A DNA stretch of 64,000 bases from assembly GCA_001630475.1 (NCBI GenBank), contig KV419421.1:8916-72915 (forward strand), given 5' to 3'. The DNA comes from Sistotremastrum niveocremeum HHB9708 (taxonomy: Eukaryota; Basidiomycota; Agaricomycetes; Sistotremastrales; Sistotremastraceae). The notes beneath the pieces are model-generated. The model had not been told where the DNA came from. It did not search any database and was given only the letters and a program-made list of their open reading frames with translations. Position numbers and translations under genes: made by a program. Shown piece after piece: positions 40,089-64,000 of this stretch (within the stretch, counting starts at the first letter, position 1; each line of letters begins with the position of its first letter).

Positions 40089-40377
40089 GCTTGTGGAGAT
40101 GTGATCCTGTTCGCAGCGTTTCAAGTAGATGAGAGATTGAAAAGACTGATGAAAGGGCTCGGGGTCGTCGGGGATGTTCAAGTTGTTGAAGACGCTCAAG
40201 AGAGTGATCTAGACTCCGCACCAACATTTCGCTGTTTTCGTAAGTTTTGACACTCCGCCGAGTCGGGCTCGCGTCGGCCTTTCGGGGTGTGGTTTATTAG
40301 TCTACCTAATAATAGGACTTTGTCGTAGCGTTTCCTGTAAAGCTACACTACGAGCCGTCGTCGCTAGCCAGAGCGTT

Positions 40378-40651
40378 AAAGGCAACAGCGGGCGTCTAAT
40401 GGAAGCCTCGGCATCTCTTTCGGAGCCGTGGACCGACTCTACAGTGGTGCACAGAGAGGGCTCAATATTCACCAAAATAAAGTCGCTCAAGCTCACAGTC
40501 GAATGCGATGACTATGGATAGCTGATTAACTGCTCAGGCTATTTTAGAAACCTTTCGAGTAGCTGTCAGGATATGATACCTATGTCGGAGATTCGGTCCA
40601 CGGCTCCGAAAGAGATGCCGAGGCTTCCATTAGACGCCCGCTGTTGCCTTT
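40378..40651. repeat. Hairpin (foldback) element with 59-bp perfect arms, copy 1
   Basis: Arms 40378-40436 and 40593-40651 are exact reverse complements, with a 156-base loop. The same arms (diverged) and a recognisably related loop occur at the centre of the palindrome at 49.55-49.83 kb, including AGGATATG..TGTCGGAGATTCGG just before the right arm. It lies about 290 bases upstream of the F-box A start. No target duplication is evident. Confidence 0.8.
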
Positions 40652-40856
40652 CCCGCTCTCGCAACGACGATTGTTCTGCGCCTGCTCTGCTCTGTGCTCG
40701 CCCTCATTCATCCTGCTCTTCAGACACTCTGACTCAGGCCGCCTTTCCACACCAATTCACATGTTCTTTCTCTCTTCAAACTCAGCGAACTCCGCTCTCG
40801 AGCATTCCATATCATCTGGTCAATTTTTTGTTCTCCGCTCTCCATTCCTCCTTCCG
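40652..40856. repeat. Leader shared with the palindrome centre
   Basis: The sequence to the right of the hairpin (GCTCGCCCTCATTCATCCTG, CAATTCACATG, TTTTTGTTCTCCGCTC, CGCACTCACCTGC in order) is repeated in the same order at 49.85-50.05 kb. Hairpin plus leader plus module therefore travel together. Confidence 0.65.
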
Positions 40857-41376
40857 CACTCACCTGCATCGCAGGGCTCCCTTGGAAATCCCCGTCGCTG
40901 GTCTGCATATGCTTACCTAGAGATGAAGCTCGATTCCTTCACTCGCGATTGGGAGAGCTTAATGAGTGCTCGGTCTGGCCGCTTTGGCAGCAGTGGTGTC
41001 TACCTGTCGTCGTTGGCGCCGACGGCGGCAGGCAAGTGCCACTGCACCAAACGGCTGGGAGATGGGCGTCGTCGGGTGACCGGCGGCACTCATCTGGGGA
41101 ATCCTCCTCCCCGTCGCACTCACCTGCATTGCAGGGCTCCCTATAAAATCCCCGTCGCTGGTCTGCATATGCTTACCGAAAAACCAAGCTCGATTCCTTC
41201 ACTCGCGATTGGGAGAGCTTAATGAGTGTCCGGTCTGGCCGCTTTGGCAGCAGTGGTGTCTACCTGTCGTCGTTGGCGCCGACGGCGGCAGGCAAGTGCC
41301 ACTGCACCAAACGGCTGGGAGATGGGCGTCGTCGGGTGGCCGGCGGCAACCATCTTGGGGGTCCCTCCTTCCATCG
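40857..41376. repeat. Tandem pair of 260-bp modules
   Basis: Two direct copies, about 40857-41116 and 41117-41376, are nearly identical from CACTCACCTGCAT.GCAGG through GGGAGAGCTTAATGAGTG to CGTCGTCGGGTG. Related modules lie at 50.02-50.64 kb and, inverted, at 48.7-49.4 kb. The repeated frames MQTSDGDF.. (minus) and GRFGSSGVYLSS.. (plus) come from the DNA repetition. Confidence 0.78.
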
Positions 41377-43404: not shown

Positions 43405-44580
43405 GGGGTGGTGGTGTCGTCTTTGTCTTTGCCGGTCTGCGCGTCAAAGACTTCGTCTTTGTTCCGTGCGCCAAATTTTTGGAACCAGATCCTTCGGGAT
43501 CATTGTGCTGCGTCGCTGTTGCTTTCTGAATGAGATCCCACCTGGTATCGTCCTCTCTCCGTTATTGTCTATGCTTGCTCTGATTCCGTCGTCTGGTTCT
43601 GTTCAGATGGCTCTTACACTTTGATTACATCGGGTGGCGATCAGATAAGTTTTGATTCTCTCTTGCCGCTGAAATTTATCTTGCAGAGTCTTGTCGCTGG
43701 CCGTAGGTCAAGTCTTGTAATAGAGCAAGGTGAGAGCTTTCGTAGTAAACACCATTTCATCGAAGCATCTAACGCCTGACAGTTAATTTCCGAAACTCGT
43801 AGAGACATCTATGTTCCATTCGTCGATCAAAAAGACTCTTCGGTGAGCAAGTCATCTCTATCTCTCTTTCATATTTGAACTTTGATCCTAGTCTCGAGCC
43901 TTACGCTCATATCCGACCAGTAGCACAGTCGTATCTCCCACATGACAGTCAAGATTCGATTTTATATTTATACCGGTGAGCGTCGTCTTGTTAACTGGTC
44001 GGCTCTTCGACTGAAAAGATCTCCTTGAATTGCATGTTCAGATCGACTCAAAACTTGGTATGGGAGCTTGCGAGAAGGAGACAGCGGGTGCTTCGCACAG
44101 CAAGTAGAGAAAGCGGAACATGTTCCGTTGCCATCGTGTTGTAAATTATCCATATTTTTGGGATATTGAACGTGACCGCCGTCCTCTATCTTACAACGCC
44201 TTGACTTGATGACCGAAAGGATCAAATCTTTTGATATCTCGAGTGTAGTCTCTCAGCATAATAAGACATCGAAGAACAAAATATATTATGTTGGAGATAG
44301 CATGACCTGAAAACGTCTAGAATTCCCGATATTGATAGTGAAAGCGTGTCGTCTTTGAAGATTCGGGATGATGAGACTGCCTTTCTTTCATGCTCCATAC
44401 CGACTGAGAGATCCGTACCGTAAAGAGTCGCACACGAATCGAGGTTCCCGAGTCGAGTTAATATCTTCATCAGTGAGCAATTCTTGGGTGCAGAAAGCAC
44501 AATTGCGCAGAAGCCGTCATGACCTTCCAAGTCCGAGTTAGAAGTGAACGAAATGAATAGAAGATGTTACTAGTACTCGC
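43405..44580. other. Region without a clear gene
   Basis: No supported exon. Short minus-strand frames at 43968-44225 and 44222-44530 lack motifs and do not splice together. Confidence 0.3.
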
Positions 44581-44584
44581 CGAT

Positions 44585-44879
44585 GAGATGACCACCATCG
44601 TCTGTTGCTCTCCGGAGACGGAGAGAAGACGACGTCAAGCGAGGGTCCCAGAGATCGTATGAGGATGTTGGTGACTGCGACGGTTACTAGTAGAGGACTG
44701 AGAGCAAACTTGTATAGCGGCGAAGGCAGCTCGGAGGCAAAAGAAAGGGGCTCCGATTTCCGACAGCGCGACTCCGACGCGTCTTTCCTGCGACCAGCAT
44801 CGACATCGCGACTCAGCGAGCCTCAGGCTGTCAGTTTCCCATCCGCAAGCTTCGAATGAGGACCATATGAACCGTCGAT
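44585..44879 (+). promoter_or_regulatory. Conserved 5' block of F-box B
   Basis: It opens with a piece of the module family (CATCGTCTG..CTCCGGAGACGGAGAG, also at 48.73 kb and inverted near 50.6 kb). It continues with ACTCCGACGCGTCTTTCC and GTCAGTTTCCCATCCGCA, both found at the same distance upstream of F-box C (55.33-55.45 kb, inverted) and F-box D (63.25-63.39 kb). Conservation beyond the coding region suggests a shared promoter, or simply recent duplication. Confidence 0.6.
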
Positions 44880-46429
44880 ATGTCTGTCGATGATCTGGCT
44901 GTTGAACTTGTGGAGGAAATCCTCGATCTCTATTTGGCTAATCCCCGGGATCCAAAATCGAGGCCGCCGCTTTACGATTTTGATCGGATGCAAGCCGTTA
45001 TGAGATTGACCAGAGTGTGCGTTTCTACCTTACTACATGCCTCTGTTTCTGGGCTGATTGATTCCAAATCTTCAGTAGCAAGAGGATACGCGACATTGTG
45101 CTTTCTCGTCCTGCGTTTTGGCGGACAATCTATCTCCATGCCCCCATGCGAATCGTCAAGCTGTTCTTTGAACGAGCCCTCAAAAATAACATTGATCTCT
45201 CTCTTGATCAACTTTATCAATGCTGTGGAGAGCTCTCCAAAGATGGCACCACTGCGGAACATATAGCAGAACGAGCCAGCTTTATCCAGTCAAATATGTC
45301 AGCCTTCCGACACCTCACCCTGCTGCCAGTTCAATTAGGCGACGTAAATCATGGGAAGATACTTTCTGTCGCGCTCCAAACTCCTGCCCCAAATCTACGA
45401 TCCATCGATATCCGATTCTGCCTAGACATGCAATGCCCGAACCTTTTTGCTCAGAGTGCCCCTAACCTCCGTACCGCTCATATCCTTACGAATGAAGATT
45501 GGAATCTGGACGCTTTCAAATCTCTCACCACAGTCAGCGTTCACATCGATCATGTTAACTGCCAGGAGATGATATCGACTCTTGAATCCATGGAGAGACT
45601 GGAAGGCATCACTTTAGTCCGTCGGAGAATGAGCCGTGATTGTTTTCTCCGGCCTCTGAAACGTCATGTGATATTCACCTCGTGTCGTCGATTTGAGGTT
45701 CAGATGATGGACTCTGACTGGGTGCTTACGCTCCTGTCAGCCATTCAACTCCCTGCTTTGGCAGAACTTCATATTCATGAAACGGCGAACTCGGGTGGAG
45801 AAGCAATCCTACCAGGGGAACTCACCCCGTCTTTTGCACACGCAATTACTTCTCTTCACAACCCCCACCATCTCCCTACCTCAATATCCATTGCAATTGA
45901 TTATAGGCACATGAAGATCACGTCGAATGGTACTCCCAGCATTTCCTACGAAAGCCGCTGGCCTGGGCAATTGCGGAACTTCGAGCCCAGTGCTTCTCTT
46001 GTCCTCGATGCCGTGTCAGACGTCTGCACCTTCTTGTCGACTATCCCAGATGTTGCCGTCCGCGAACTCGCATTTCACTATGACATGAGTTTCGTCCGGG
46101 CAGACACCAGTCCTGATTCCATGACACCCTTGAGTTCTATGAATGCTACAGTCCTGCTACGCAGAATCATGGAAGCCTATCCCCTCATCACAAGCCTAAC
46201 GCTCCGTGCTGATGTGGATGACGCCATTAATCTCTTTTGCGCCGAACCGCACCTTCTATCGTCCCACCCTCGCCTCGAAATTTCGACGCTCATCGACCCG
46301 GAATCGCCCCGCGCTACGGACCTCTTCCACAACCTCCTTCATCTCGAAGCTCTTACAGGATGTGAAATAGACGTTTTGCGCCGCCATTCGTCAGCTCCCG
46401 TTAGCCGACAGTTTCCAGAGTTTCACTAG
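44880..46429 (+). CDS. F-box/LRR-like protein, paralogue B
   Basis: Two exons (44880-45016, 45076-46429) give 496 residues. The intron (GTGCGT..TTCAG) sits in phase 2 after codon 45, exactly as in C and D. Seen: an F-box-like N-terminus (LAVELVEEILDLYLANPRDPK .. SKRIRDIVLSRPAFWRTIYL) and a long LRR-like region with repeated aliphatic spacing such as TPAPNLRSIDIRF, ending with LLHLEALTGCEIDVL. Likely substrate adaptor of an SCF ubiquitin ligase; target unknown. The frame is intact. B faces C across the palindrome, and the two are close in sequence through the whole protein. Confidence 0.85.
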
Positions 46430-46479
46430 CGCTCCGAGTCGTTCGACTGCACCTACTTCTTCGAAGCTTCTTCCTACTC

Positions 46480-47200
46480 CCATTACTAGCAGTTTTTCTT
46501 CTTCAATCGTTCTGAAACTCTCGCCTTTGCCATCATTATCATTAGTGTACTGTACTTCGCATGCTCGCATTCATGTATGTCTCGTCCGACTTGCCAATAA
46601 TTGATCTGTATTGCAGCGCTCCTTTTCACTTCGATACGCTCTCGGAATTCCACATCGACTTCAAAATTTGAAGTGCTACTCTTCTTCCGTGAGTCTTCAA
46701 TATTCAAGCCTGCAGTGTCTCCAATAGCAATAGCAGATTCAGACTGGATATAAGGAGCTCGAGGCTGAGAAGTGCTGATGGTCTGACGATCACTCTTACC
46801 GTTCCCGATGGTGCGACGCCAACATGATCACCAGGCATCAATTTCTTCAAGGATCCTTTCCCTTGTCAACGTTAGATGACGGTAACAAAGCTTTAAAGGC
46901 CACGGCGCTCTCGCGGTGTGCCATACCATCTACTTGTCTTCGAAAATCTACCGCCGTCCCGCCTTGACTTCTATTGTTGTTTGAGACCCAATGACTGCCA
47001 CTGCTGCCCGACGAACATCCACGAACACGCCTTTCACGTCCCGTGCTGCGTATGCCGCTGTCATCTAGTCTCATCCAAGCTCCAATACGTCCTCAGTTTC
47101 GACTAGCAATTAGGCGGAAAGCGTTCTCTTGCAGGCTATCGGTGCGCTATCAATATCTGTCTTTCATGCTTAATTTGACCTCGCATTCAAAGTTATTCAG
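46480..47200. repeat. Conserved 3' flank of F-box gene B
   Basis: Inverted relative to the flanks of A and C. Shares the AATGATAATG..CACTAAT-type block beside the stop, a frame reading SADGLTITLTVPDGATPT (SANGLTVTLIVSDGATPT downstream of C) and the GCGGAAAGCGTTCTC block. Confidence 0.6.
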
Positions 47201-47324
47201 GCCCTCCTGCTGTACTTATCGTTGATCCGAGCCAGTCCTTGATCAACACCGCCATACGCTTTGCTTGCAGCATTGAGAGTAGAGACAGGGATGCGCAGCG
47301 CAGTCGACGCTGCCTCTTGAGAGT

Positions 47325-47625
47325 GGGGGCAATTCGAGGTGAGATCTCCGAGTCCAATCTATTGCTTGGTCTGAAAGATGGACGCTGATGTGCGATTGCT
47401 GTGATCGTAGCGTAGCTTTCTGATGATTCGGAGAGTGAAGGACATCCTCACGCAAATAAAAAAACGCCCCATCCCGTACGTCCTCCCCCCTCGGCTTTCA
47501 CACACCGACTAAGGACATGACGTTGTGACGCTAGATCGAGAAATAATGCAACATTGACGACACGCACGAAATCCGAAAGGCAGACATCGCAAAGATCAAA
47601 GCAGAACTGAAAACCCACCCTTCAC
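47325..47625 (+). pseudogene. Truncated CDC37 5' fragment, left arm
   Basis: Matches the start of the CDC37 gene at 59.5 kb: the end of exon 1 with its donor, intron 1, exon 2 (CTTTCTGATGATTCGG .. GGACATCC) and the first part of exon 3 (ATCGCAAAGATCAAAGC). Because an intron is retained, it is a DNA-level copy, not a retrocopy. The frame is broken, the W-K-Q-R-D-I-H motif is damaged, and homology stops at about 47625. Its mirror copy is at 52731-52988. Confidence 0.75.
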
Positions 47626-47705
47626 TCACACCCCCACCCGTGTCTATAAATCGACCAAATTTCACTCGTCCTCCATCGCACGCCGCAGGTAATCTCAAAT
47701 TCACA

Positions 47706-48361
47706 ATGTCCCTCGCCCTATATTTAACAGCCGTCCTCAAAGGGAAACTATCCACAAACCCCACCTTCTTCCTTGACTTCACAAAATACCTCGAACACGC
47801 TGTCAAATCCCTCCTCTCCTCCAAAAGAAGTTCGTCATACAACCCATCCCCACACCCAACCCTGATGCCGAATTTGACGAACGATTCGCTAAGATATTCA
47901 CGGAGGGGGTTAAAGCTGTGGTCAATGGCGTTCCGTTGGATTATGAGGGTCTTAGTGCTGCGTTGGTGCATTTGAGGGATATATTTGATTTGCCGAGCGT
48001 TGTTTTCACGGGGTCGACGTCTCATGCTTCGTCTGCTGGTGATGGGGCATGTCTATCGGTTGTCTTTTTTGGAAAAGTATGACGCTCATGACCGATCCAT
48101 TTCCAGGAATACCTCGTCGTGAATTCTTCCGCATCCCTATCATCTCCATACCCGAGAACCCGCATCCTGATATTGAAGTGGTCGTTTTCACAACGTGAGC
48201 ATCTCTATTGCATTGATTTGCTGTTCACTATGAATCTGAGAATAATGTGTATCAGGATTGTTGTTGGTATCCTCGAGCCCAAAATCTTTCAGATCAATTT
48301 ACTCGTAAATCACAACATTGTTGGACCAGGGCACAGTTCCGAGAAGGAAGTCAATTCTTGA
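47706..48361 (+). pseudogene. Frameshifted copy of the NTF2-like gene, left arm
   Basis: Nearly the same DNA as the intact gene at 51024-51685, in inverted orientation. The left copy lacks a 9-bp in-frame stretch near codon 30, has lost one A in the AAAAAG run near 47825 (frameshift), carries a changed first donor, and has another 1-nt loss near 48118. The last exon (IVVGILEPK.FQINLLVNHNIVG) remains readable. Decay of one copy of a duplicated pair is the simplest reading. Confidence 0.75.
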
Positions 48362-48639
48362 TTATATTCATGGCATCTGGGATGCGTAACGACGAGCACT
48401 TGTAACTGGTATGAATATATAGTATCCTCTAATTGTCGACATTGCAAATCCGCATGTATCGTTTGCACTTAGCTTGCGGTATCAACAATAATCGGTGACT
48501 TCTCCTTTGACTATACAGCTGCGCAATTTTCTCCTCTGAATGTCGAGTCCTGCCTTGGGCTGTATTGATAAATCTGTGAAAAGATATGAGTGATCAACAA
48601 GACTGGAGATGTGCATGGCTATTCACAACATACCGATGC

Positions 48640-49615
48640 GGGGAGATGCTGGACGTATGGTGTCGGAGTAAAACAAAAAGGACCTCCAAAAGGAATTAGA
48701 CGAGGACAAAATAAGATAGAAGATGGTACTCGCCAAGGAGATGATCGCCATCGTCTGCTGCTCCCCGGAGACGGAGAGGAGGAGACGATGGCAAGCGAGA
48801 GTCCCAAGATGATCATATCAATGACCATCTACCAGCCTTTCGAAACGAGCGTTCAAAAGAACACCACACATCGGCAGCCAGACCGAGCACTCAATGATCT
48901 CTCCACAGCAGTCGGTGCGCAGATGAAGCACAAGGCTTCCGCTGGCACTCTTAAGACCTAGGTCCCTCGGGTTCGGAATACCGAGTAGCTGCTGTGGATT
49001 TTGTTCGCGAAGAACGGCGAGACCTGCGCTGCAAGCAGGGCAGGTGAGTACGGAGGGGGGAAGAGGAAGGGGAACCCAAGGTGGTCGTCGCGACCACGTC
49101 CCAGCATCTTGAAGTTTAAGCACTCGCCTGTGGCCGAACGTCGACAAGTCGACGAACGACGATAGGAGTCTTGAGAGATACCGCCACAGCCAGTCTGCCC
49201 ACTCATCAATCTCTCCACAGAAGGACCTGCGCGAAAGAAGCAAGCTTCATCGAGCATGTTTCACCTCGAGTATTAAATATTCGAGTGTCCCGCTGGGATT
49301 TTGTCGTCGAGACGACGGTGAGACCTGCACTGCAAGCAGCTAAGCAAGCAGGGCAGGTGAGTGCGGAAGAGGGGATGGGGAGCGGAGAACAAAAAGTTGA
49401 GAGATGATATGGAATTTTCGAGAGCTGAGTTTCAAGGAAAAGCATGTGAATTATTGTTGCCAGTAAGAACTAAACAAGAAATTTGAAGGGCCAGGATGAA
49501 TGAGGGCGAGCGCAGAGCAGAGCAGCAGTTGCGAGAGTCGCTGCGAGCGAGAGAGTCAAGGTAACCGCGGGCGTCTAAACGAAGCATCGGCGTTGCTTTC
49601 GGAGCCGATGCCGAA
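48640..49615 (+). repeat. Left arm of the palindrome (core part)
   Basis: By eye about 95 percent identical, as reverse complement, to 49768-50745. It carries modules with CAGGTGAGT motifs and the right-hand hairpin sequence. Landmarks: GAGATGATCGCCATCGTCTG at about 48739, GGGTTCGGAATACCGAGTAG at about 48970, AGCAAGCAGGGCAGGTGAG at about 49344. No genes. The recognisable homology continues leftward through the NTF2-like copy, the CDC37 piece and F-box B. Confidence 0.8.
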
Positions 49616-49830
49616 CGTCCGGCAGCATCCCGATAGGGCTCGATTTTCATGACAGTAAAATCTCTCCAGTTCAAATAGGAATGAAGTGAGTTTCAGTGCG
49701 TAATGATGCATCGTTTTATCCCAAGACGCTATCAATATTCGTGAGGATATGCTACCGATGTCGGAGATTCGGCATCGGCTCCGAAAGCAACGCCGATGCT
49801 TCGTTTAGACGCCCGCGGTTACCTTGACTC
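49555..49830. repeat. Hairpin (foldback) element, copy 2, at the palindrome centre
   Basis: Left arm ends at 49615 with GAGCCGATGCCGAA; right arm starts at 49768 with TTCGGCATCGGCTC; the loop is 152 bases. Both arms and loop are related to copy 1 at 40378-40651 (shared GGGCGTCTAA..GAAGC.TCGGC and AGGATATG.TACC.ATGTCGGAGA). The symmetry axis of the whole inverted duplication, near 49691, falls inside this loop. Confidence 0.75.
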
Positions 49831-50745
49831 TCTCGCTCGCAGCGACTCTCGCAACTGCTGCTCTGCTCTGCGCTCGCCCTCATTCATCCTGGCCCTTCAA
49901 ATTTCTTGTTTAGTTCTTACTGGCAACAATAATTCACATGCTTTTCCTTGAAACTCAGCTCTCGAAAATTCCATATCATCTCTCAACTTTTTGTTCTCCG
50001 CTCCCCATCCCCTCTTCCGCACTCACCTGCCCTGCTTGCTTAGCTGCTTGCATCGCAGGTCTCACTGTCGTCTCGACGAAATGCCAGAAGGACCCTTGGT
50101 TATTTAATCACCAAGACTCAATGTCGGTCAATTGAAGCTTGCTTCTTTTGCTCGCGTCCAGCTGGGAGAGATCAATGAGTGCCCGGACTGGCTGCGGCGG
50201 TATCTCTCAAGACTCCTATCGTCGCTCGTCGATTTCTCGACGTGCGGCCACAGGCGAGTGCTTAAACTTCAAGATGCTGGGATGTGGTCGCGACGGCCAC
50301 CTTGGGTTCCCCCTTCCCCTTCCCCCCACCGCACTCACCTGCTAGGCGGGTCTCGCCGTTCTCCGTGAACAAAATCCACAACAGCTACTCGGTATTCCGA
50401 ACCCGAGGGACTCAGATCCTAAGAGTGCCAGCGGAAGCCTTGTGCTTCATCTGCGCACCGACTGCTGTGGAGAGATTGATGAGTGCTCGGTCTGGCTGCC
50501 GATGTGTGGTGTTCTTCTGAACACCCATTTCGAAAGGCTGGGAGCTGGTCATTGATATGATCATCTTGGGAATCTCGCTTGCCATTGTCTCCTCCTCTCC
50601 GTTTCCGGGGAGCAGCAGACGATGGCGATCATCTCCTTGGCGAGTACCCTCTTCTATTTTATTTCGTCCTCGTCTAATTCATTTTTCGAGGTTTTTTTTT
50701 GTTTTACTTTGGCACCATACGTCCAGTATCTCCCATCATAGGTAT
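49768..50745 (-). repeat. Right arm of the palindrome (core part)
   Basis: Mirror of 48640-49615. In plus orientation it holds the leader, a module from about 50020, a second module from about 50330 with a GAGTGCTCGGTCTGGCTGC core, and the GTCTCCTCCTCTCCGTTTCCGG piece near 50590. One indel relative to the left arm is visible around 50340 (a shorter CTGCTAGGCGGG version of the module leader). Confidence 0.8.
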
Positions 50746-51023
50746 GTCGTCGATAGCCATGCACATCCGCAGTCTTGTTCATCACTCATACCTTGTCACA
50801 GATTTACAAGACAGCCCCAGGTACAACTCGACATTCAGAGGAAAAAAATGCGGAGCTGTACAGTCAAAGGAGAAGTAACTGAGTATTGTTGATACCGCAA
50901 GCTAGGTACAAACGATACACAGAGCCAGGCGGATTTGCCATGTCGGAAATTCGAGAATACTATATATTCATACCAGTGGTCACAAGAGTTCGTCGTTACG
51001 CATGCCATATGCCATGAATATGA

Positions 51024-51685
51024 CTAAAAATTGACATCCTTCTCGGTGCTGTGCCCTGGTCCGACGATGTCGTGATTGACAAGTAAATTGATCTGGAAGA
51101 CTTTGGGCTCGAGGATGCCCACAACGATCCTGATATATACCATTGTCAAGATTCATAGCAGTCGAGAGCGACAAAGATTCTTACGTTGTGAAAACGGCGA
51201 CTTCGATATCGGGATGGGGGTTCTCGGGAATAGAGATGATAGGGATGCGGAAGAACTCAGCGACCAGGTATTCCTAGAAACAATTCGACATATGCGTCAT
51301 TCAGTGACAGAAGAGCAAAAAATATGCGTACTCCAGCGCCAGCAGGCGAAACATGCGAAGTCGACCCCGTAAAGACAACACTCGGCAAATCAAATATATC
51401 CCTCAAATGCTTCAACGCCCCACTGAGTCCCTCATAATCCAACGGAACGCCATTGACGACAGCTTTAACGCCCTCCGTGAATATTTTAGCGAATCGTTCG
51501 TCGAATTCGGCATCGGTGTTGGGAGTCGGGATGGGTTGTATGACGAATTTCTTTTTGGAGGAGAGGAGGGATTTGAGGGCGTGTTCGAGCCATGGTTCGA
51601 GGTATTTCGTGAAGTCGAGGAAGAAGGTGGGGTTGGCGGATGGCTTTGCTTTGAGAGCGGCTGTTGAGGATAGGGCGAGGGACAT
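51024..51685 (-). CDS. NTF2-like (SnoaL-type) small protein
   Basis: Three exons (51685-51332, 51273-51185, 51129-51024) give 182 residues in a clean frame. Seen: a helical N-terminus (FFLDFTKYLEPWLEHALKSL), then FDERFAKIF..GVKAVVNGVPLDYEGL, a HLRDIFDLPSVVF strand region, and beta strands ending VFQINLLVNHDIVGPG. This order resembles fungal NTF2-fold proteins with an unknown ligand or enzymatic role; assignment by pattern only. It is the intact partner of the frameshifted copy at 47706-48361. An upstream in-frame ATG at 51733 is possible, but the paralogue supports 51685. Confidence 0.62.
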
Positions 51686-51739
51686 TGTGGGTTTGTGAGT
51701 ATCAGTGGTGGGGGACAGGGCGACTTTGATCAACTTATA

Positions 51740-52725
51740 AACCCATGTGTGAATCAGGAGAGTGGCGCGCGCCCGGAAGCAATCCTACGAATCGAAGTTT
51801 GATTGAGAAGCCAAGATGCCGGGAGTTCTCGGGAAAGTTGTGGGACGCCGAAAAGTTTGAATGTCTACCTGGACAGGTTCTTGAAATGCCGTGGCTCGTT
51901 TTCACGCACTCGGCGCTACGGAATGTTCCATTGCTCACGAAAGAAATCCAGAGTCAAAGCTTGAGAGTAGCAGCCAGGACGAGGAGAGCAATTCGAGCCA
52001 AAGCGGGACCAAAATTCACATCATGCAGGTGCGAAGGGAACGCTGGACACAGGACCACTGCTAGCCGATGTCACTAGGAAGAATTCCGCGTCCGAAAACG
52101 CATTTCCATCAGTTTCAGTTTCGTGAGCTCATAGCACGTCATGTGCACGTTCGCAAGGGGAGGCGCTACTTCATCATCGATTCCGGATGTTGTTCCTTCT
52201 GCGAGTTGCGCATGTGTAGTCCGGCAAGATTGAACTGTAAAGAGACAAAAGGGTATCCGCATCAGTAGATGACAAGAAGGGCGCTCCACACTGACAGGAT
52301 CAATACGCATGCAAGACACGGCATTCAACAATAGTAGTCGTCAGCCAATCCTGAGCACGAGCTAGGCTCGGAAATACCACAGAGTCAATCGCAAATATGC
52401 AACTCCCGGTTCCAAGAATAGATTCCAGAGTAACTCGGAGCCTCTGGTTTCGCTTGGCTCTCATCAGAGTGGAGTTTCAAGAATCGAGGGATGCCAAGTA
52501 AGACGCAAGATGTCAGACGGGCAGAAACGTCGGCAGCGCTTGCATTCGTACTTGGGCGCTTGTCGAGGGTGCAGCGGGGCCGACTCTTGCCAAGAATGAG
52601 ATGTTACCAGGCTCATGATTAGATTGACGATCACGGGAATATAGGTTCAGCATTTCAGATGCTCAATGACCCTAATCATGGAACTATTAGCACAATTTCT
52701 CCAATTTCGCCGAAAGAGAAGACGT
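51740..52725. other. Segment without a mirror in the left arm
   Basis: About 0.8-0.9 kb that separates the NTF2-like gene from the CDC37 piece on the right but is missing on the left, where the two features are only 80 bases apart. It is either an insertion on the right or a deletion on the left. No gene, TIR or target duplication was recognised. Confidence 0.5.
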
Positions 52726-52730
52726 GCTAC

Positions 52731-52988
52731 ATGTCCTTCTATATCTGTAGGTTTATCGGAAGATGGGGCATTTGGAGTTGGTGCACTGTTGAGGAGGAGA
52801 ATGAGCGGCCTTGGGTGGAGATTTCGTGCGTGAAGGAAGTGAGGCGCGGGCGGAGGACGTGGGCCTTGATTTTTGCGATGTCAGGATGTCCTTCCAAATC
52901 CGAACTCTCAGTAGACTGAGAATTGCAGCACATCAGCCTCGATCTTTCAGAACAAATGAGATCGAAGATCTCACCTCGAGTCAATCCT
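52731..52988 (-). pseudogene. Truncated CDC37 5' fragment, right arm
   Basis: Read on the minus strand: end of exon 1 and its donor, intron 1, part of exon 2 (SSDLEGHPD) fused directly to exon 3 (IAKIKAHVLRPRLTSFTHE.. to about the DVEGQ position of CDC37). Exon 2 and 3 are joined by an internal deletion that removes intron 2 and the WKQRDIHEKR segment. It shares intron changes with the left fragment that the functional gene lacks, so the two fragments derive from one another. Confidence 0.75.
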
Positions 52989-53029
52989 ATCTCAGAGATA
53001 ACAGGTAGCGTCGACTGCGCTGCGCATCC

Positions 53030-53720
53030 TCCGTCTTTACTCTAGATGCCGCAAAAATTTCGTATGACCGTATTCATGAAGGATAGACTCGGATCAAGGA
53101 TATGAATGCAGAGCCTGAATAATGCGAGGTCAAAATCAGCATGAAATAGGAATATGGCGAGTCTACTGACAGCGCACCGACAGCATGTAAGAGAACGCTC
53201 TCCGCCTGATTGCTAGTCAAAGCTGCGTACATCTTGGAGCTCTGATTAGACTACGTGAGGACGTGTTCTTGGGTGTTCGGCTGGCAGTAGTCATTGGATG
53301 CCAAACAACGATGGAAGTAAGGATGGTAAGGTGGTGGGAGAAGGGAGGAGGGCCCATACTGAGAAATTTGTCGCTGGTGATGTTGGCGTCGCACCATCGG
53401 ACACGATAAGAGTGACCGTCAGACCATTAGCACTTCTCGGCCTCTTAACATCCAGTCTGCTATCTGGTATCGGAGACGCTGCAACGTTGAATATTGAACA
53501 TTTATTGAGAAGGAGAACGCGGCATGCGATTCCGAGAGCGTAGCGGAGTGACAAGAAAAAAACATTGCGATACAGAGCAATTATCGGCGAGTCGGACGAG
53601 ACATACATGAATGGGACAATGCAAGGTACAGTAATACACTAATGATAATGATGGCAAAGGCGAGCGTAAGATGATTGAAGACTGAGAAGTGCTGGTAATC
53701 AGAGTACTAGGAAGGGAACC
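53030..53720. repeat. Conserved 3' flank of F-box gene C
   Basis: Same orientation as the flank of A and inverse to B. Shares CAGCGCACCGACAGC, the SANGLTVTLIVSDGATPT frame and the ATGAATGGGA..CACTAATGAT block near the stop. Confidence 0.6.
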
Positions 53721-53750
53721 CGCATGCAATCGAACGACTCAGAGAGAGCG

Positions 53751-55324
53751 CTAGTGAAACTCGAGAAACTGTCGGCCAACCGGAGCGAACGAAGTGCGGG
53801 GAAAAACGTCTATTTCACATCCTGTAAGAACTTCGAGGTGGAGAAGGTTGTGGAAGAGGTCCGTAGCGCGGGGCGATTCCGGGTCGATGAGCGTCGAAAT
53901 TTCGAGGCGAGGGTGCGATGATAGAAGATGCGGTTCGGCGCAAAAAAGATGAATGGCGTCGTCGACATCAGCACGGAGAGTGAGGCTTGTGATGAGGGGA
54001 TAGGCTTTCATGATTCTGCGTAGAAGGACTGTGGCATTCATCCCACTCAAGGCGGTCATATCATGACGATTGGTCTCTCCCCGGACGAGACTCATGTCGT
54101 AGAGAATTGAGAGTTCGCGGACTGCAACATCTGGGATTGTCGACAAGGAGGTGCAGAGGTCTGAGACGGCATTGAGGAAAATAGGATTTCCAAACCCGAA
54201 GTCCGTCGCTTTCCAAACCCATCGGCTTTCGTAGGAAATGCTGGGATTACCGTTCGTTGTGATCTGCATGTGCCGATAATCGATTGCGATGGATATTGAG
54301 GTAGGGAGATGGTGGGGGTTGTGAAGAGAAAGAAGTGCATGTGAAAACGACGGGATTAGTTTCCATGGTAAGATGAATTCTCCATCCACGTTCGCGCGAT
54401 TCACCGTCTCCTGAATGTGAAGTTCTGTCAAAGCAGGGAGTTGGATGGCTGAGAGGAGCGTGAGCACCCATTCAGACTCCATCCTCTGAACCTCAAATCG
54501 ACGACACGAGGTGAATATCACGGGAGTCACAGGACGTTCTAGTGACCGGAACGGATCATCCGAGTCGCGGGAGGTTATCCGCCGGACTAAGGTGATGTCT
54601 TCCAGTCTCTCCATAGATTCGAGAGTCGATAACATCTCCTGGCATTTATCGTGATCGATGTAAACGCTGACCGTGGTGAGAGATTTAAAAGCTTCCAGAT
54701 TCCAATCTTCGTTCGTGAGGAGATGTGCGGTACTGAGTTTCGCGGCATTCTGAGAGAAAAGGTTGGGGCATTGCATGTCTTTGGAGAATCGGATATCGAC
54801 GGTTTCGAGATTTGGAGCAGGAGTCTGGAGCACGACAGAAAGTATCTTCTCGTAATGTATGTCGCCTAATTTGATTGGAATCAGGGTGAGGTATTGGAAG
54901 GCTGACATATTCGACTCGATAAAGCTGGCTCGTTCTGCCATGAGTTCCGCAGTGGTGCCCTTTCCGCAGATCTGTCCGCAGCATGGATAAATTTGGTCGA
55001 AGGAGAGGTCGATATTATTTTTGAGGGCGCGTTCGAAGAACAGCTTGACGATACGCATTGGGGCGTGGAGATAGATTATCCGCCAAAACGCAGGACGAGA
55101 AAGCACAATGTTGCGTATCCTCTTGTTACTGAACATTCGAATACAATCAGCTCGAAAACAAAGGCATGAATTTGGAGAGAGACGCACACTTGTGTCAATT
55201 CCATGACGGCCCGCATCCGATCAAAATCGTAAGTAGGCGGTTTCAATTTTGGATCCCGAGGGTCAGCCACGTAGAGATCGAGGATTTCCTCCACAATTTC
55301 AACAGCCAGCTGGTCAAGAGACAT
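53751..55324 (-). CDS. F-box/LRR-like protein, paralogue C
   Basis: Two exons (55324-55188, 55128-53751) give 504 residues, intact. Same architecture and intron as B: LAVEIVEEILDLYVADPRDPK, NKRIRNIVLSRPAFWRIIYL, TPAPNLETVDIRFS, then LLHLEVLTGCEIDVFPR at the end. Compared with B it carries small in-frame insertions (for example DPFRSLERPVTP near the middle). Many substitutions are scattered, so B and C diverged well before the present core of the palindrome became nearly identical, or the core has been homogenised. Probable SCF substrate adaptor. Confidence 0.85.
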
Positions 55325-55470
55325 GTCGACGACTCATATAGTCCTCGTTCGAAGCCTGCGGATGGGAAACTGACGAGGCTCGCGGTGTCGCGATTGTGGT
55401 CGAAGGAAAGACGCGTCGGAGCCGCGCTCTCGGACATCGGAGCTGTCGTCGCTTCTCTACTGTGTGGGTG
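55325..55470 (-). promoter_or_regulatory. Conserved 5' block of F-box C
   Basis: On the minus strand: GCTCCGACGCGTCTTTCC followed by GTCAGTTTCCCATCCGCA about 30 bases before the ATG, as in B and D. Confidence 0.6.
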
Positions 55471-59490: not shown

Positions 59491-61318
59491 ATGCCTCTTA
59501 ATTATTCAAAGTGGGATCAGCTCGAGGTATGATCTCCTATTGCTTTGTATTGTTTTGTGCAAGGATCGAGGCTGATGAGATTGCTATGATCTAGCTTTCT
59601 GATGATTCGGATATCGAAGGACATCCTAACGTAGATAAGAAATCTCTCATCCGGTACGTCCCCGCATATCGAATCGATATCCATATTGACAGATGTACGA
59701 CTGTAGATGGAAACAACGCGATATCCACGAGAAACGTGAAATCCGCAAAGCGAACATCGCAAAGATCAAAGCAGAGCTCAAAACACACTCTGTCCTGCAC
59801 CCGCGCCTAACGACATTCACACAATCCCTCCCCTCCAAGGGTCTATCATTCTATTCGCAAACAGTCGAACAACTCCAAACTTCTCCATCGCCTGATAAAC
59901 CTACGGATGTGGAAGGACAGCCTACGTACGATGCTATGATCGTTGATGTCCTACTTCGAGTTCGAGAGGAGGTGATGAAAGAACTTGGAAAGGAGGATGA
60001 GGAGAAAGTTGTTAAAGCGCTTGTTAAAGGGTTGGAAGGACATTTGAAGGAGATGGAGGAGTTTAAAGAGAGGAGGGAGAAGGAATTGGAGAGTGAGTTG
60101 AAAGAGCAGGCGAAACATATTACGAGTGATGATTTACATGATGGGTGGGATTCACATGTATGTTCCTTTACTTCTTCTTGTTTGAGAGGGGGGCTGATGG
60201 GTTGGATGGTGTAGTATGTCCCGCCGACGCCTGAGCCTGCGCCGCTTGTCAAGCCGAAAGTATCGAAGGAACCAGCGAAGAAGTCGACGAAGACCACAAC
60301 AGAATACGAAGTCCTCAATCCCAAATCCTCATCCTCATCCACCCCCGCTCCTCCCCCTCCCGCCGCCGCCGCCGCCTCAGCAGAAGAAGAAGAAGAAGAA
60401 GAAGAAGAAGAAGAAGAAGAAGAAGAAGAAGAAGACCCCGATCTCCCAGAACTAACGCCCGGCCTCCGAGGATTCGCAAAAATCCCCCTAGGCGAATACA
60501 CCCGTTCATTCGAATACATCCAATCCCACCGCGATGTAGTTCTTCCAGGTGCATACGATGCATTACTCGTCGAAGCGTGGTCTGCTCAGACGAGGGGGGA
60601 GAGCAAGTATTCGAAACAGTGTGTTCATCAGGCGCTTTTGTTGCAGTATTGTGAGAAGTTGGGGACGAATGGTGTGGGGCTTTTCTTCAAGAAGTACCCC
60701 TTCCTTCCTCTCATCTAATTTGGAATGAATTTGCTGATGTTGGGTAGGATGATCGAGCATGCGAAACCTGCTGAACCTGTATTCCGCAAAGACGTCGATG
60801 ACACACACGCACATATCGTTCGACGTGTCAAAGAGACCAAAACGGAGCCCCAAGCATCAGGCAAAGAAACGATCCAACTCTTCCCAGAAGGCGACGGCTC
60901 AGACGTAGCATGGTACATCCCCGACGGACCCCCTCCACCAAACCTAATCCTCGAAGGACCCGGAACCGAAGATCTCTCAGTCGACGAAGTCCGAGAAGTC
61001 CTCGAAAATCGCTGGCAGATCTTCCAATCCTTCTCCCCCGCAATCCAAGCAGCACTGAAGGCTAATAGTTTGGATAAGTTGAATAAGGTGTTGCTTGGGA
61101 TGACGGTGGATGAGGCTGAGGAATTGGTGGAGAAGTTGCAGGATTCGGGGATGTTGACTTTTGCGGGTGGGGGTGTGCAGGAGGGTGGACCGCTTGAGCC
61201 GCATTTGGCGGCTGTTGCTGCTAGGGAGAAGGCTGAGGCGGAGGCTGAGGCGAAGAAGGCTGCTGCTGCGAATGCTGATGGTGATGGTGATGCGGTACAG
61301 GATGCTGAGGAACTGTGA
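59491..61318 (+). CDS. CDC37: Hsp90 co-chaperone CDC37
   Basis: Five exons (59491-59526, 59595-59653, 59707-60157, 60215-60693, 60748-61318) give 531 residues. Seen: the family N-terminus MPLNYSKWDQLELSDDSDIE with the conserved phosphorylatable Ser in DDSD, HPNVDKKSLIRWKQRDIHEK, a coiled-coil, then the Hsp90-binding middle domain (KIPLGEYTRSFEYIQSHRDV, CVHQALLLQYCEKLG) and the C-terminal domain. It delivers kinases to Hsp90 in the cytosol. Odd: a run of about 18 Glu coded by GAA/GAG-type repeats plus an Ala/Pro run in the linker. Two truncated 5' copies lie at 47.3 and 52.7 kb. Confidence 0.95.
60382..60434. repeat. (AGA)n trinucleotide run in CDC37
   Basis: An uninterrupted purine run coding poly-Glu, preceded by a GCC run coding poly-Ala (about 60360-60376). 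Likely length-variable between strains. Confidence 0.85.
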
Positions 61319-61319
61319 T

Positions 61320-62755
61320 TATTGTCTGGAAGTTGGATTTTCCGCGTCTTCATGATTGATTTCTTTGTGCTCTCAATGCATGCTTTGTAATAATAGTACT
61401 AATTCAAAACAACTACCTGCGTTAAATATTTCCGCTGAGTGTCAATGCAACTGTGAGTTTCCTTGTCGAAGACCGCGTGCTGCTATAGCGCCGAGATTGG
61501 TTGTGTTTTGACTTGGACTTTCTCCAGAGGCTCGAACTCGCTATCGTGCCATACTCTCGTCAGGATATCTCTGTCACAATATGGATAACAGAGCTGTCAA
61601 TCTAATCACGCCATGGAACCTGATACTCAAATTCTCGCCGTGATGCGTACCCAGAAACGGAGGCGCCCTCGACGTTTATTAATAAATCCAAGTCTTCTAC
61701 CCATCTTGCATCTTGCGTCCTCAGTACTCCATTCTGATGAAGTCAAAACGTCAACAGAGAGTCGGGCGTTCTCCCCGGATCTTGTCAGTCGCCGCCGTAA
61801 CTTCTGTCCTGGCGCTCTTCATCTCAACGTTAACAAGCATCTACACTTCAAGGCTCCTTCATATCCGTCTCCTTCTCGTCGGATTCCATCCTCTCAAAGT
61901 CGCCTCGAACCATCTGATTATCAACAGTATCAACCCCGGGCCTTGAATCAAGTTACTTCCTCGTCAAGTGATCAGTGATTCATCTCTACCTATTCTCGAA
62001 CATACTATCCCGAATGAATACTTTCTAATGTCCTCGTCTATCACTCGACCCTGTATGGCGACTAGCTCGCGTCTGCGTCCAATTGCATTCATCGTGCTAT
62101 AACTGTCATTCTGCTCGACTGTGTCTATTTCATTTGAGACCATGTTCTTGCAAACGGTGTCATCTCTCATCGTCAGATCACCTCTGGTCCGCTGCTCCCA
62201 GGCAGTCATCGGACGAGAACAGGTACCAACTCCTCGAGGTATGTTCTGAAACCACGATTGCACTGTATATTGCCTAACTGAGATCATAGCGTGTATCAAG
62301 GAAAATTCTCGACGCCTGATCGTGAAGCTCTCCTGAACTTGAAGGCGTTTGGAAGATCAGCTGAAATCAAGCTGAAAGTAGAATCTTGGGCGGCGTTCCG
62401 GAAAATTGCGCAATTCCGAGGCATTGATTCGAAAGAAGTTGGCGTGTCCGTGAAGAATAAACGCTATTAGAAATCAGTTGCATCGATGTCTAGCGGCTAG
62501 CCTGGATTTTATCGCAATGTCTCGCGCTTTCTTCTCTTCCACGACCCGAGAGTGATTGCACGCTTATTCCTTGCTCTCGTCTCGCCCAAATCGCTGTCGC
62601 ATCGCCATGGACTATTTCTTCCATACAATCTACGTCGAAGACATTGTTCTCTCCTGATCGACATCAACGCCATGACAGCGGTTCCCGTCCCTTGCCTTTT
62701 CCAAGAATATAGCAAACCGCTTCCTCCACAAATGATCATATTATTCATAACCCTC
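61320..62755. other. Intergenic region downstream of CDC37
   Basis: A 121-codon plus-strand frame at 61613-61978 is Ser/Arg-rich and has no motif; it may be part of the duplicated C/D upstream segment, but I could not match it to the C side. No gene supported. Confidence 0.35.
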
Positions 62756-62759
62756 AACC

Positions 62760-63210
62760 TATGGATCCGACCTACTTGATTCTCGTTTTCGTGCCTCCCT
62801 GCATCATCCGCTCATATGAGCACTTGATCTCGGAACCGCACGCAAGCGTGTACGAACGCCTTTTCTTGATCCAGGGATCTGTCAATGCTGTCCTCCGATG
62901 CCTTCTGGATATCTATTGTCCTTTGAGCTCAATGGCGAGCGCCAGAATTTCTTCGATGATATGATGTCGACCTTTTTGACAGTGTCACCTCACGTTCATC
63001 ATGTGGTAATGTTCTCGATCACGACTTCTCCTATATTCTTCTTTTGTGCCACTCCCTTCTCGTCAAATGTAATATTTGGGGTCCTCTCTGTTCTTCGCTT
63101 TTCAGAGATTTCTACAGTGCACTCTCTGCGTAAATCGGCGATAATATTTGATATTTTAGGCTTCAAGTATCAATACTCTTGCGTGATCCTAGCCTCTCGT
63201 TACAAATGAT
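62760..63210 (+). repeat. Upstream block of F-box D shared with C
   Basis: Partner of 55520-56115 in inverted orientation (see that entry). Landmarks in translation: SYEHLISEPHAS, SSMASARIS, VLSVLRFSEIS. Confidence 0.6.
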
Positions 63211-63244
63211 CTGTAATTTATCTTTTTGATACGTTCCACCCACA

Positions 63245-63390
63245 CAGTAGAGAGGTGACGAGGCTCCGACGTCCGAGAGCGCGACTCCGACGCGTCTTCC
63301 CTGCCACCACCGCGACACTGCGAGCCAAGCTGCGAGCCTCTGTCAGTTTCCCATCCGCACGCTTCGAACGAACACCAACGAACCGTCGAT
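63245..63390 (+). promoter_or_regulatory. Conserved 5' block of F-box D
   Basis: GCGACTCCGACGCGTCTT and GTCAGTTTCCCATCCGCA at the same spacing from the ATG as in B and C. Confidence 0.6.
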
Positions 63391-64000
63391 ATGTCTTTTG
63401 ACCATCTGGCTGTTGAACTTGTGGAGGAAATACTCGAACTCTATGTATCTAAACCCCGGGATCCAAAATTGAAACCGTCGCTTTACGATTTTGACAGGAT
63501 GCGAGCGGTGATGAGATTGACTTTAGTGTGCGTTTCTCACCCATCTCATGTCCTTCATTCTGTGCTGAATGTTTCTGAATGTTTAGTAATAAAAGAATAC
63601 GACAAATAGTACTCTCTCGTCCAGCCTTCTGGCGAGTCATCTACCTGCACGCTCCAATGCCCATCGTCGAGATGTTCTTCGAACGAGCCCTCAAAAAGAA
63701 CATTGACCTCTCTCTCGACCAAATTTATCAATGCTGCGAAAATCTCTGCAAAAATAGCACCCCCGCCGACCAAATAGCACAACGAGCCAGCTTTATCCAG
63801 TCAAACATGTCCGCATTCCAACACCTCACCCTGCTGCCAATCAAATTAAACAACATTGATTACTGGAAGACACTTTCTGTCGCGCTCCAGACTCCCGCCC
63901 CAAATCTGCGATCCATCGATATCCGATTCTCCCAAGACATGCAATGCCCGAATCTTTTTGATCAGAATGCCCCTAAACTCCGTACCGCTCATCTCCTCAC
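63391..64000 (+). CDS. F-box/LRR-like protein, paralogue D (5' part)
   Basis: Exon 1 is 63391-63527; exon 2 begins at 63587 and is open to the window end, so the gene is truncated by the window only. Seen: LAVELVEEILELYVSKPRDPK, NKRIRQIVLSRPAFWRVIYL, MPIVEMFFERALKKNIDLSLDQIY, TPAPNLRSIDIRFSQDMQCPNLF. The intron sits at the same codon and phase as in B and C. Orientation is opposite to C. Likely an SCF adaptor like its paralogues. Confidence 0.85.

Follow-up and report, generated by a model that had tools for sequence, protein, structure and literature searches.

How can the two arms of a single inverted repeat be old along most of their length and new at the axis on which they meet? Palindrome arms that evolve in concert are familiar above all from the sex chromosomes of animals and plants. 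The question is raised here by a 64,000-nucleotide stretch of contig KV419421.1 from the basidiomycete Sistotremastrum niveocremeum HHB9708 (hereafter the window). Unprefixed coordinates refer to the window; C28 denotes the contig that carries it (for example, C28:56232-56553 is window 47317-47638). The palindrome under study is called P58 (axis 49691.5), P49, P79, P94 and P112 are named by their kilobase positions on C28, and C13 stands for the palindrome at C13:213.5 kb.

A preliminary description of this locus claimed a large inverted duplication with an axis near 49691 and the same elements in mirrored order on both sides. Self-comparison bore out the inverted repeat, its axis and the order of its elements (Table 1). 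About 0.9 kb of the right arm (roughly 51.8-52.8 kb) has hardly any equivalent on the left, if one at all. The axis region (49.6-49.8 kb) is fully sequenced, without N, and the spacer is asymmetric.

Several of the gene labels need correction. Two intact F-box genes were said to face each other; B and C are indeed open and convergent, but their F-box domain is under the Pfam cut-off in B and not matched in C. Gene B matches the Pfam F-box-like family at E 0.0025 (18.0 bits, under the curated cut-off of 24.3), gene C has no Pfam match for F-box, and an F-box match was obtained in three of five close paralogues (best E 0.0025). The predicted structure of the second exon of gene C (pLDDT 64.5) has NLRP9 and NLRC4 as top Foldseek matches, and its best 25 include the ubiquitin-ligase/SKP1 complex chains 4i6j_B, 9qo4_M, 8byl_B, 6w66_B and 1fs2_A (all at TM 0.2-0.4); we take these proteins to be LRR proteins. 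The claimed NTF2-like gene of each arm is an open frame on the right, with its nearest relatives outside C28 on C52 (56-58 percent), but is split over two frames on the left; it has no Pfam match of any kind at E 1 or better. The left CDC37-like fragment is upheld by DNA similarity to a CDC37-type gene at window 59.5-61.2 kb (C28:68.4-70.1 kb), on the 5′ side of that gene, and a relative of the gene at C28:82 kb matches CDC37_N (E 5.9e-12). Its right-hand partner is a weak protein match.

Table 1. Features of the inverted repeat and its surroundings, in window coordinates unless prefixed
Feature	Position	Strand	Details
P49, older sister palindrome	40357..41369	.	left arm 40357-40440, right arm from 40589
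P49 tandem modules, 260-bp	40855-41360
Remnant of core-arm outer end	44522..44660	+	immediately upstream of gene B; nhmmer C28:53437-53575, E 2.3e-16
Outer arm piece	44750-46825 vs 55443-53380	inverted	81.8 percent identity
F-box-like gene B	44880..46429	+	496 aa; one 59-bp intron 45017-45075
Left stretch, gene B to NTF2-like copy	46430..47505	.	mirrored ~52826-53750, 74 percent
Middle arm piece	47066-47393 vs 53253-52928	inverted	74.0 percent identity
Left CDC37-like fragment	47317..47638	+	DNA similarity 69.9 percent, C28:56232-56553 vs 68420-68722
Left NTF2-like copy	47697..48055	+	two frames relative to right copy, shift part way
Inner arm piece	47702-49624 vs 51689-49759	inverted	86.4 percent identity
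P58 left core arm	48680..49624	+	with repeat modules
Perfect 285-bp tract, left	49331..49615	+
P58 spacer, 134 bp	49625..49758	.	homologous to P49 spacer, window 40441-40588
P58 right core arm	49759..50700	-
Perfect 285-bp tract, right	49768..50052	-
Right NTF2-like open frame	51257..51733	-
Right CDC37-like fragment, weak	52772..52882	-	tblastn 42 aa, 38 percent, E 0.003
F-box-like gene C	55324..53751	-	504 aa; one 59-bp intron 55187-55129
Start of third close F-box-like copy D	62749..64000	+	continues to C28:73852

Identity between the arms declines away from the axis, as had been proposed, but it does so in steps and is neither smooth nor monotonic. Beside the axis, 285 bp per arm are identical with 0 differences, and this tract ends abruptly. 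The longest perfect run was at most 90 bp in 10000 permutations and at most 256 bp in 10000 block permutations, so the observed run is beyond chance. Two bins at 49218-49315 hold 28 mismatches in 95 columns. The inner 0.93 kb, previously put at about 95 percent, is 91.7 percent identical and falls to 88.4 percent (73 mismatches in 627 columns) once the perfect tract is removed; the core arms overall have 90 mismatches in 941 columns. Identity is 84 percent over the next 0.9 kb, 74 percent beyond that and 84 percent in the F-box-like genes, leaving B and C more alike than the stretch lying inside them. The arms thus differ by 26 percent at 2-3 kb from the axis, against 0 over 285 bp beside it. 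Because dS between B and C (0.31) equals that between B and D (0.31), B and C are, by this measure, ordinary paralogues; dN/dS in the F-box-like genes is ~0.43.

P58 is one of a family. A palindrome scan recovered P49, P58, P79, P94 and P112 on C28, one palindrome on C13 and some smaller pairs, whereas a small control (100 kb of C1 and C28:133-213 kb) yielded no palindromes; C1 has one module array adjoining an N run. The P58 core has homologues in the palindromes at C28:49.5, 79.7 and 94.2 kb and at C13:213.5 kb, with only faint similarity in P112 (C28:112.4 kb). Divergence is 23-31 percent between P58 and the other palindromes (69-77 percent identity) and 8-11 percent between P79 and P94, so the core is not simply constrained. 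Perfect runs adjoin the axes of P58 (285 bp), P94 (605 bp) and P79 (840 bp) and end abruptly in each; the C13 arms are 91 percent identical and have no perfect tract. The left arm of P49 comprises only 83 bp.

P49 and P58 have homologous spacers in the same orientation, with a local score of 27 against a maximum of 20 in 2000 shuffles and 11 in reverse; this comparison covers one pair, the centres of the other palindromes reading N. On the homology of these spacers, the palindrome is older than the P49/P58 split. The repeated fold-back at this spot that had been suggested is not needed: P49 (window 40.4-40.7 kb) has the same turning point and spacer, so a single origin of the axis, followed by copying, is most likely. 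Separate fold-backs at each locus, with arms that are young duplicates and not converted, likewise predict arms that are alike within but not between loci. Fold-back that leaves a spacer is known from human inverted duplications, which, as described in the available part of that study, have inverted arms around a single-copy spacer, as here (PMC3907307). However, those are new patient events spanning many genes, whereas the present repeat is old, with a core in several copies. With a spacer and turning point common to two loci, and old F-box-like arms (dS 0.31) in the same inverted repeat as a new axis, separate fold-back is very unlikely.

The distribution of variants among sister palindromes suggests instead that the halves of each palindrome keep copying each other. 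Variant sites within one genome were scored as shared within a locus or shared by side, with gap and N columns dropped. Nine of the ten palindrome pairs were countable (C13-P49 has no common columns), and in 9/9 the sites shared within a locus numbered 13-168 against 0-3 shared by side. For P58 the ratios were 168:1 with P79 (865 columns), 153:1 with P94 (825 columns), 50:2 with C13 (441 columns) and 23:1 with P49 (93 columns); for P79 they were 43:1 with P94 (868 columns), 99:3 with C13 (414 columns) and 19:0 with P49 (92 columns); and for P94, 89:1 with C13 (398 columns) and 13:0 with P49 (77 columns). The C13 arms show the same sharing, though they are not mirror-cut at their gap. Changes confined to a single arm are also frequent (78, plus 19 other sites, in P58-P79; 51 plus 8 in P58-C13), so that, at a distance from the axis, homogenisation would still be very incomplete. 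Polarised within-locus changes include 16 W to S and 13 S to W, small numbers without GC bias.

Of the two processes offered earlier, fold-back or ongoing conversion, the second is therefore better supported, by the abrupt 285-bp tract, the within-locus sharing and the common spacer. We think it probable, though far from settled, that a single-origin palindrome was copied along with a growing F-box-like cluster while arm-to-arm gene conversion reset the stretch at its axis. A palindrome of ~2 kb (two ~0.9-kb arms and an asymmetric spacer of ~135-150 bp) would have arisen once and been copied as the cluster expanded through largely inverted duplication. The arms within each copy would lie near enough to pair, and gene conversion, set off by breakage or fork stalling at the hairpin, could effect repair between them. 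Such repair would keep resetting the axis-adjoining stretch, so that arms evolve in concert within a locus while divergence builds up between loci. Lying 3-5 kb from the axis, the F-box-like genes would escape conversion and behave as normal paralogues under purifying selection. Similar behaviour has been reported in the available text of two sex-chromosome studies. Willow W palindromes have arms that agree within a palindrome and differ between lineages or loci, as in the P58 family, and were examined by a test of the same kind, namely between-species differences without between-arm variants (PMC7023750); in mammalian X palindromes, arm-to-arm gene conversion keeps arms alike, as proposed here (PMC8981503). 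Unlike those palindromes, the present ones have arms of <1 kb and a perfect zone of 0.3-0.8 kb, and sister palindromes of one genome, not species, were compared.

Could the perfect tracts be a product of assembly, near-identical arms having collapsed into a single consensus that was written twice? P79, P94 and P112 each have an N gap placed exactly on the axis and bordered by mirror-image edges, and a gap also interrupts the C13 palindrome. The perfect tracts of P79, P94 and P112 may therefore be partly one consensus used twice, with inflated identity. As a general account this is nonetheless decidedly unlikely: the P58 centre has no N, its spacer is asymmetric and its arms carry the mismatches counted above; the C13 arms differ by 9 percent right beside their gap; and beyond the perfect tract the P58 core is 88 percent identical between its own arms, against 69-77 percent to other palindromes.

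Template switching at an imperfect hairpin during replication (quasipalindrome correction) would also copy one arm onto the other, and would do so at the axis, where the homogenised stretch is found. The accessible parts of two studies offer precedents: likewise in a fungus, short inverted repeats of yeast become identical by template switching, with spacer inversion (PMC8604942), and the process has been suggested to maintain the hairpins of RNA genes (PMC8794818). Nevertheless, the yeast study searched for arms of at least 7 bp with spacers of at most 70 bp, and the examples in that text are 4-16 bp (PMC8604942), far below the tracts of 285-840 bp, the arms of hundreds of bp and the 134-bp non-inverted spacer seen here. 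Spacer orientation is kept in the one comparable pair (P49/P58), and template switching appears unlikely. We infer that gene conversion, rather than template switching or assembly collapse, homogenises the arms, that it continues to do so and that the palindrome moves together with the genes.

Paired changes would also accumulate if the transcript were a functional hairpin RNA whose arms are selected for complementarity. Paired changes are many, and read-through from the convergent genes into the palindrome could occur. However, neither strand has an excess of wobble-keeping mismatches (27 vs 29 of 90 in P58; 12 vs 13 of 31 in C13), Rfam at its gathering threshold has 0 matches in the window, L010, L012 and L013, and a perfect tract that turns abruptly poor is unlike selection for pairing. 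A role as hairpin RNA is highly improbable.

The palindromes sit in an expanding gene family. The body of gene C has 49 matches in this genome (gene C included), 12 of them on C28, and the first ten of these (47-122 kb) lie on alternating strands, the pattern expected from inverted copying; strict alternation is lost once two weaker F-box-type frames on the + strand, at 76.8 and 119.3 kb, are counted. In Flammulina filiformis, 210 annotated F-box genes form a likewise expanded set, described in the available text through gene counts and expression and not in terms of palindromes (PMC7567395). It is tempting, if rather doubtful, to view the palindrome as a cis-acting conversion seed: carried along with F-box-like genes and folding into hairpins between convergent pairs, it would drive, through breaks, both the alternating inverted duplications that expand the cluster and axis homogenisation. 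Against an association with the genes, no close family member is in view near the C13 palindrome: the best-placed Pfam F-box-like match is 6 kb off (29 bits), and gene C finds its nearest C13 matches at 150 and 269 kb.

No description of palindrome-arm conversion in a basidiomycete F-box cluster was found among titles and the openings of abstracts, in mostly non-subscription literature, which leaves absence unproven. A series of sister palindromes that runs from 0 to 26 percent divergence over 3 kb would separate conversion, template switching and fold-back, and its presence in one fungal gene cluster would connect palindromes with the expansion of an F-box-type family. It also serves as a warning that assemblies can break exactly at palindrome axes.

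Within the window there are no tRNAs, and by eye the copies of the repeat modules share no consistent frame that would point to a coding role. The modules of P49, used as a query, matched only themselves. The idea that modules are unique to palindromes was rejected, as a related 177-bp tandem unit occurs on C1, C7, C12, C3, C11, C70 and C2. This unit has at least 22 matches (query included), on one strand per locus except on C70, where both strands are represented ~4 kb apart.

The inverted duplication reported in the preliminary description is real, and it is mirrored about window position 49691.5 (genome analysed: 34.7 Mb, 111 contigs; window = C28:8916-72915). Self-comparison of the window yields three inverted blocks on this one common axis (see table), and a right-arm stretch of about 0.9 kb is largely or wholly unmatched on the left. 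The first estimate of core identity, about 95 percent by eye, needed correction. Counted from the alignment, the inner 0.93 kb of this palindrome (P58) is 91.7 percent identical between arms. Identity with the mirror sequence is 84.5 percent for 47702-48600 and 74.1 percent for 46430-47505 (207 gap columns), and the F-box-like genes of the two arms, B and C, are 84.4 percent identical. Beside the axis lies an exact 285-bp tract on each side (49331-49615 and 49768-50052). It ends abruptly, with mismatches at 11 of 47 columns in 49266-49315 and 17 of 48 in 49218-49265, and the core minus this tract is 88.4 percent identical (73 mismatches in 627 columns). A 285-bp run was never reached by chance; the maximum was 90 in 10000 permutations and 256 in 10000 block permutations.

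Positions of the inverted blocks, palindromes and third gene copy (window coordinates unless a contig is named)
Feature	Position	Mirror	N run on axis	Remark
Inverted block 1, F-box-like genes	44750-46825	55443-53380		self-comparison
Inverted block 2, between gene and core	47066-47393	53253-52928		self-comparison
Inverted block 3, NTF2-like gene and core	47702-49624	51689-49759		self-comparison
P49, older damaged core copy	40357-41369
P79, core copy	C28:78703-80646		C28:79608-79742
P94, core copy	C28:93147-95228		C28:94084-94278
P112, sixth palindrome	C28:111788-113068		C28:112354-112503	arms 96.3 percent
C13 palindrome, core copy	C13:212588-214574
Gene D, third copy	starts near 62749, ends C28:73852

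Genome searches with three core pieces, which give lower bounds, located core arms on C28 and C13 only. The inner part of P112 is faintly similar to the core (61 percent over 258 columns, E 4e-6), and a genome search with P112 matched its own two arms only. It is flanked by two F-box-like paralogues that face it and are 62.9 percent alike. Near the C13 palindrome no close family gene was seen; the Pfam F-box-like match closest to it is ~6 kb off. Scans of 100 kb of C1 and of C28:133-213 kb found no close inverted pairs. The stretch adjoining the C13 palindrome (C13:211993-212588) is 64 percent alike to window 43924-44521, which leads up to the remnant of an arm lying upstream of gene B.

Five mechanisms were weighed for the likeness of the arms: arm conversion, template switching at a hairpin, separate fold-backs, selection on a hairpin RNA and assembly collapse. 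The palindromes were compared two at a time: sites at which the two arms of one carry the same base, unlike either arm of the other, were counted against side-shared sites, dropping gap and N columns. Within-locus to side-shared counts for P58 were 168:1 with P79, 153:1 with P94, 50:2 with C13 and 23:1 with P49. P79 gave 43:1 with P94, 99:3 with C13 and 19:0 with P49, and P94 gave 89:1 with C13 and 13:0 with P49; C13-P49, with zero shared columns, was uncountable. A separate small alignment of the inner ends of P58 and P49 gave 21:0 over 93 columns. The arms therefore evolve together at each locus, if the palindrome predates the loci. That greater age is supported for P49-P58, the sole pair with readable centres. 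Their spacers give an alignment score of 27 when compared in the same orientation, against 11 with one reversed and at most 20 in 2000 shuffles, and the turning points of their arms almost coincide. Separate fold-backs at each locus fit badly with this shared spacer; of the two earlier readings, repeated fold-back is consequently not needed, and conversion gains support from the within-locus sharing and the perfect axis tract.

The divergence yardstick, 26 percent 2-3 kb out and a gene dS of 0.31 versus 0 across 285 bp at the axis, agrees with arms evolving together per locus. Single-arm changes are frequent (65 in P58 and 13 in P79 arms in the P58-P79 comparison), as is to be expected at sites beyond the reach of homogenisation. 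Selection on a hairpin RNA fits badly, as wobble counts of 27 and 29 of 90 match it poorly. Template switching at the hairpin was weighed too, but as far as PMC8604942 describes it, the process is known in yeast from much shorter arms and spacers.

Assembly collapse could also make arms look identical. The axes of P79, P94 and P112 are N runs of 135, 195 and 150 with mirror-image edges; of the four N runs within C28:8916-212915, three fall exactly on palindrome axes, which points to assembly gaps. The perfect runs of P79 (840 bp) and P94 (605 bp) may thus be one consensus used twice. Against collapse, the P58 centre is fully read, without N, and the P58 arms mismatch at 90 of 941 columns; the C13 palindrome contains 1005 N, but its arms differ by 9 percent. 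The case for conversion draws chiefly on P58, C13 and P49. Gaps at real palindromes fit one case described in a review (PMC7999016), a human palindrome better preserved in yeast clones than in E. coli. The stretch preceding the window, C28:1-8915, is all N.

Among the mechanisms weighed, arm-to-arm conversion is the best fit to the assembled sequence, but the polarised within-locus changes, few in number, show no GC bias (16 W to S, 13 S to W). Palindromes whose arms keep each other alike have precedents; the P58 system is notable for its small scale and for a family lying mostly inside a growing F-box-like cluster. The boldest reading is that the palindrome itself may drive the inverted growth of this cluster.

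Genes B and C are open over 496 and 504 aa, each with one 59-bp intron at a matching position, and dN/dS for the F-box-like genes is 0.43 (bootstrap 0.32-0.55). Since dS is 0.31 for both B-C and B-D and 0.42 for C-D, the B-C pair is neither particularly young nor particularly close. The gene C body has 49 genome matches including itself, the best six all on C28. Strand alternates along the first ten C28 matches (C28:47495-122444, 47 to 122 kb); if two further, weaker F-box-type open frames on the + strand (76.8 and 119.3 kb) are counted, the alternation is no longer strict. The Pfam F-box scores 18.0 bits in gene B, below the cut-off of 24.3, and has no match in gene C; three of five close paralogues match (best E 0.0025). 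A low-confidence predicted structure (pLDDT 64.5) matches NLR-type and SKP1-complex chains at TM 0.2-0.4. Given this weak F-box, the genes are best called F-box-like. A second, larger inverted pair (C28:74157-79583 with 94279-98938; 71-76 percent alike) comprises F-box-like genes E and F (dS 0.43) with P79 and P94. The paralogues facing P112 (C28:109372-111167 and 116370-114574) repeat the layout around an almost unrelated core sequence.

The modules in the palindrome arms belong to a wider repeat family. A query taken from a 177-bp tandem array on C1 has 22 matches including itself, on C1, C2, C3, C7, C11, C12 and C70, and the core arms match a model of the unit weakly but significantly; the reverse search also links both. 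Outside C28 and C13 module matches occupy one strand per locus, except on C70 (both strands ~4 kb apart), and thus palindromic module use, as far as seen, characterises the C28 and C13 loci. Direct arrays of a 177-bp module related to those of the palindromes lie at C1:374998-376264, split by an N run, and C7:599264-600243. At two other loci, module matches occur 1-2 kb from F-box-type matches (C7:671181-672365 with 673448-673680; C12:397116-397782 with 399888-399989).

Among the other mirrored elements, the NTF2-like gene, so named in the preliminary description, has no Pfam match; beyond C28, its relatives lie on C52. The CDC37 label holds by DNA similarity for the left fragment and by a weak protein match for the right. 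Two CDC37-type copies, ~61 percent alike, lie inverted to each other in the cluster at window 59491-61180 (+) and C28:81171-82781 (-). A tyrosinase-looking gene, judged from its translation by eye, has inverted and direct copies (window 22051-23620; C28:101122-102688; C28:124409-125948), and a perfect (AGA)18 run occupies window 60382-60435.
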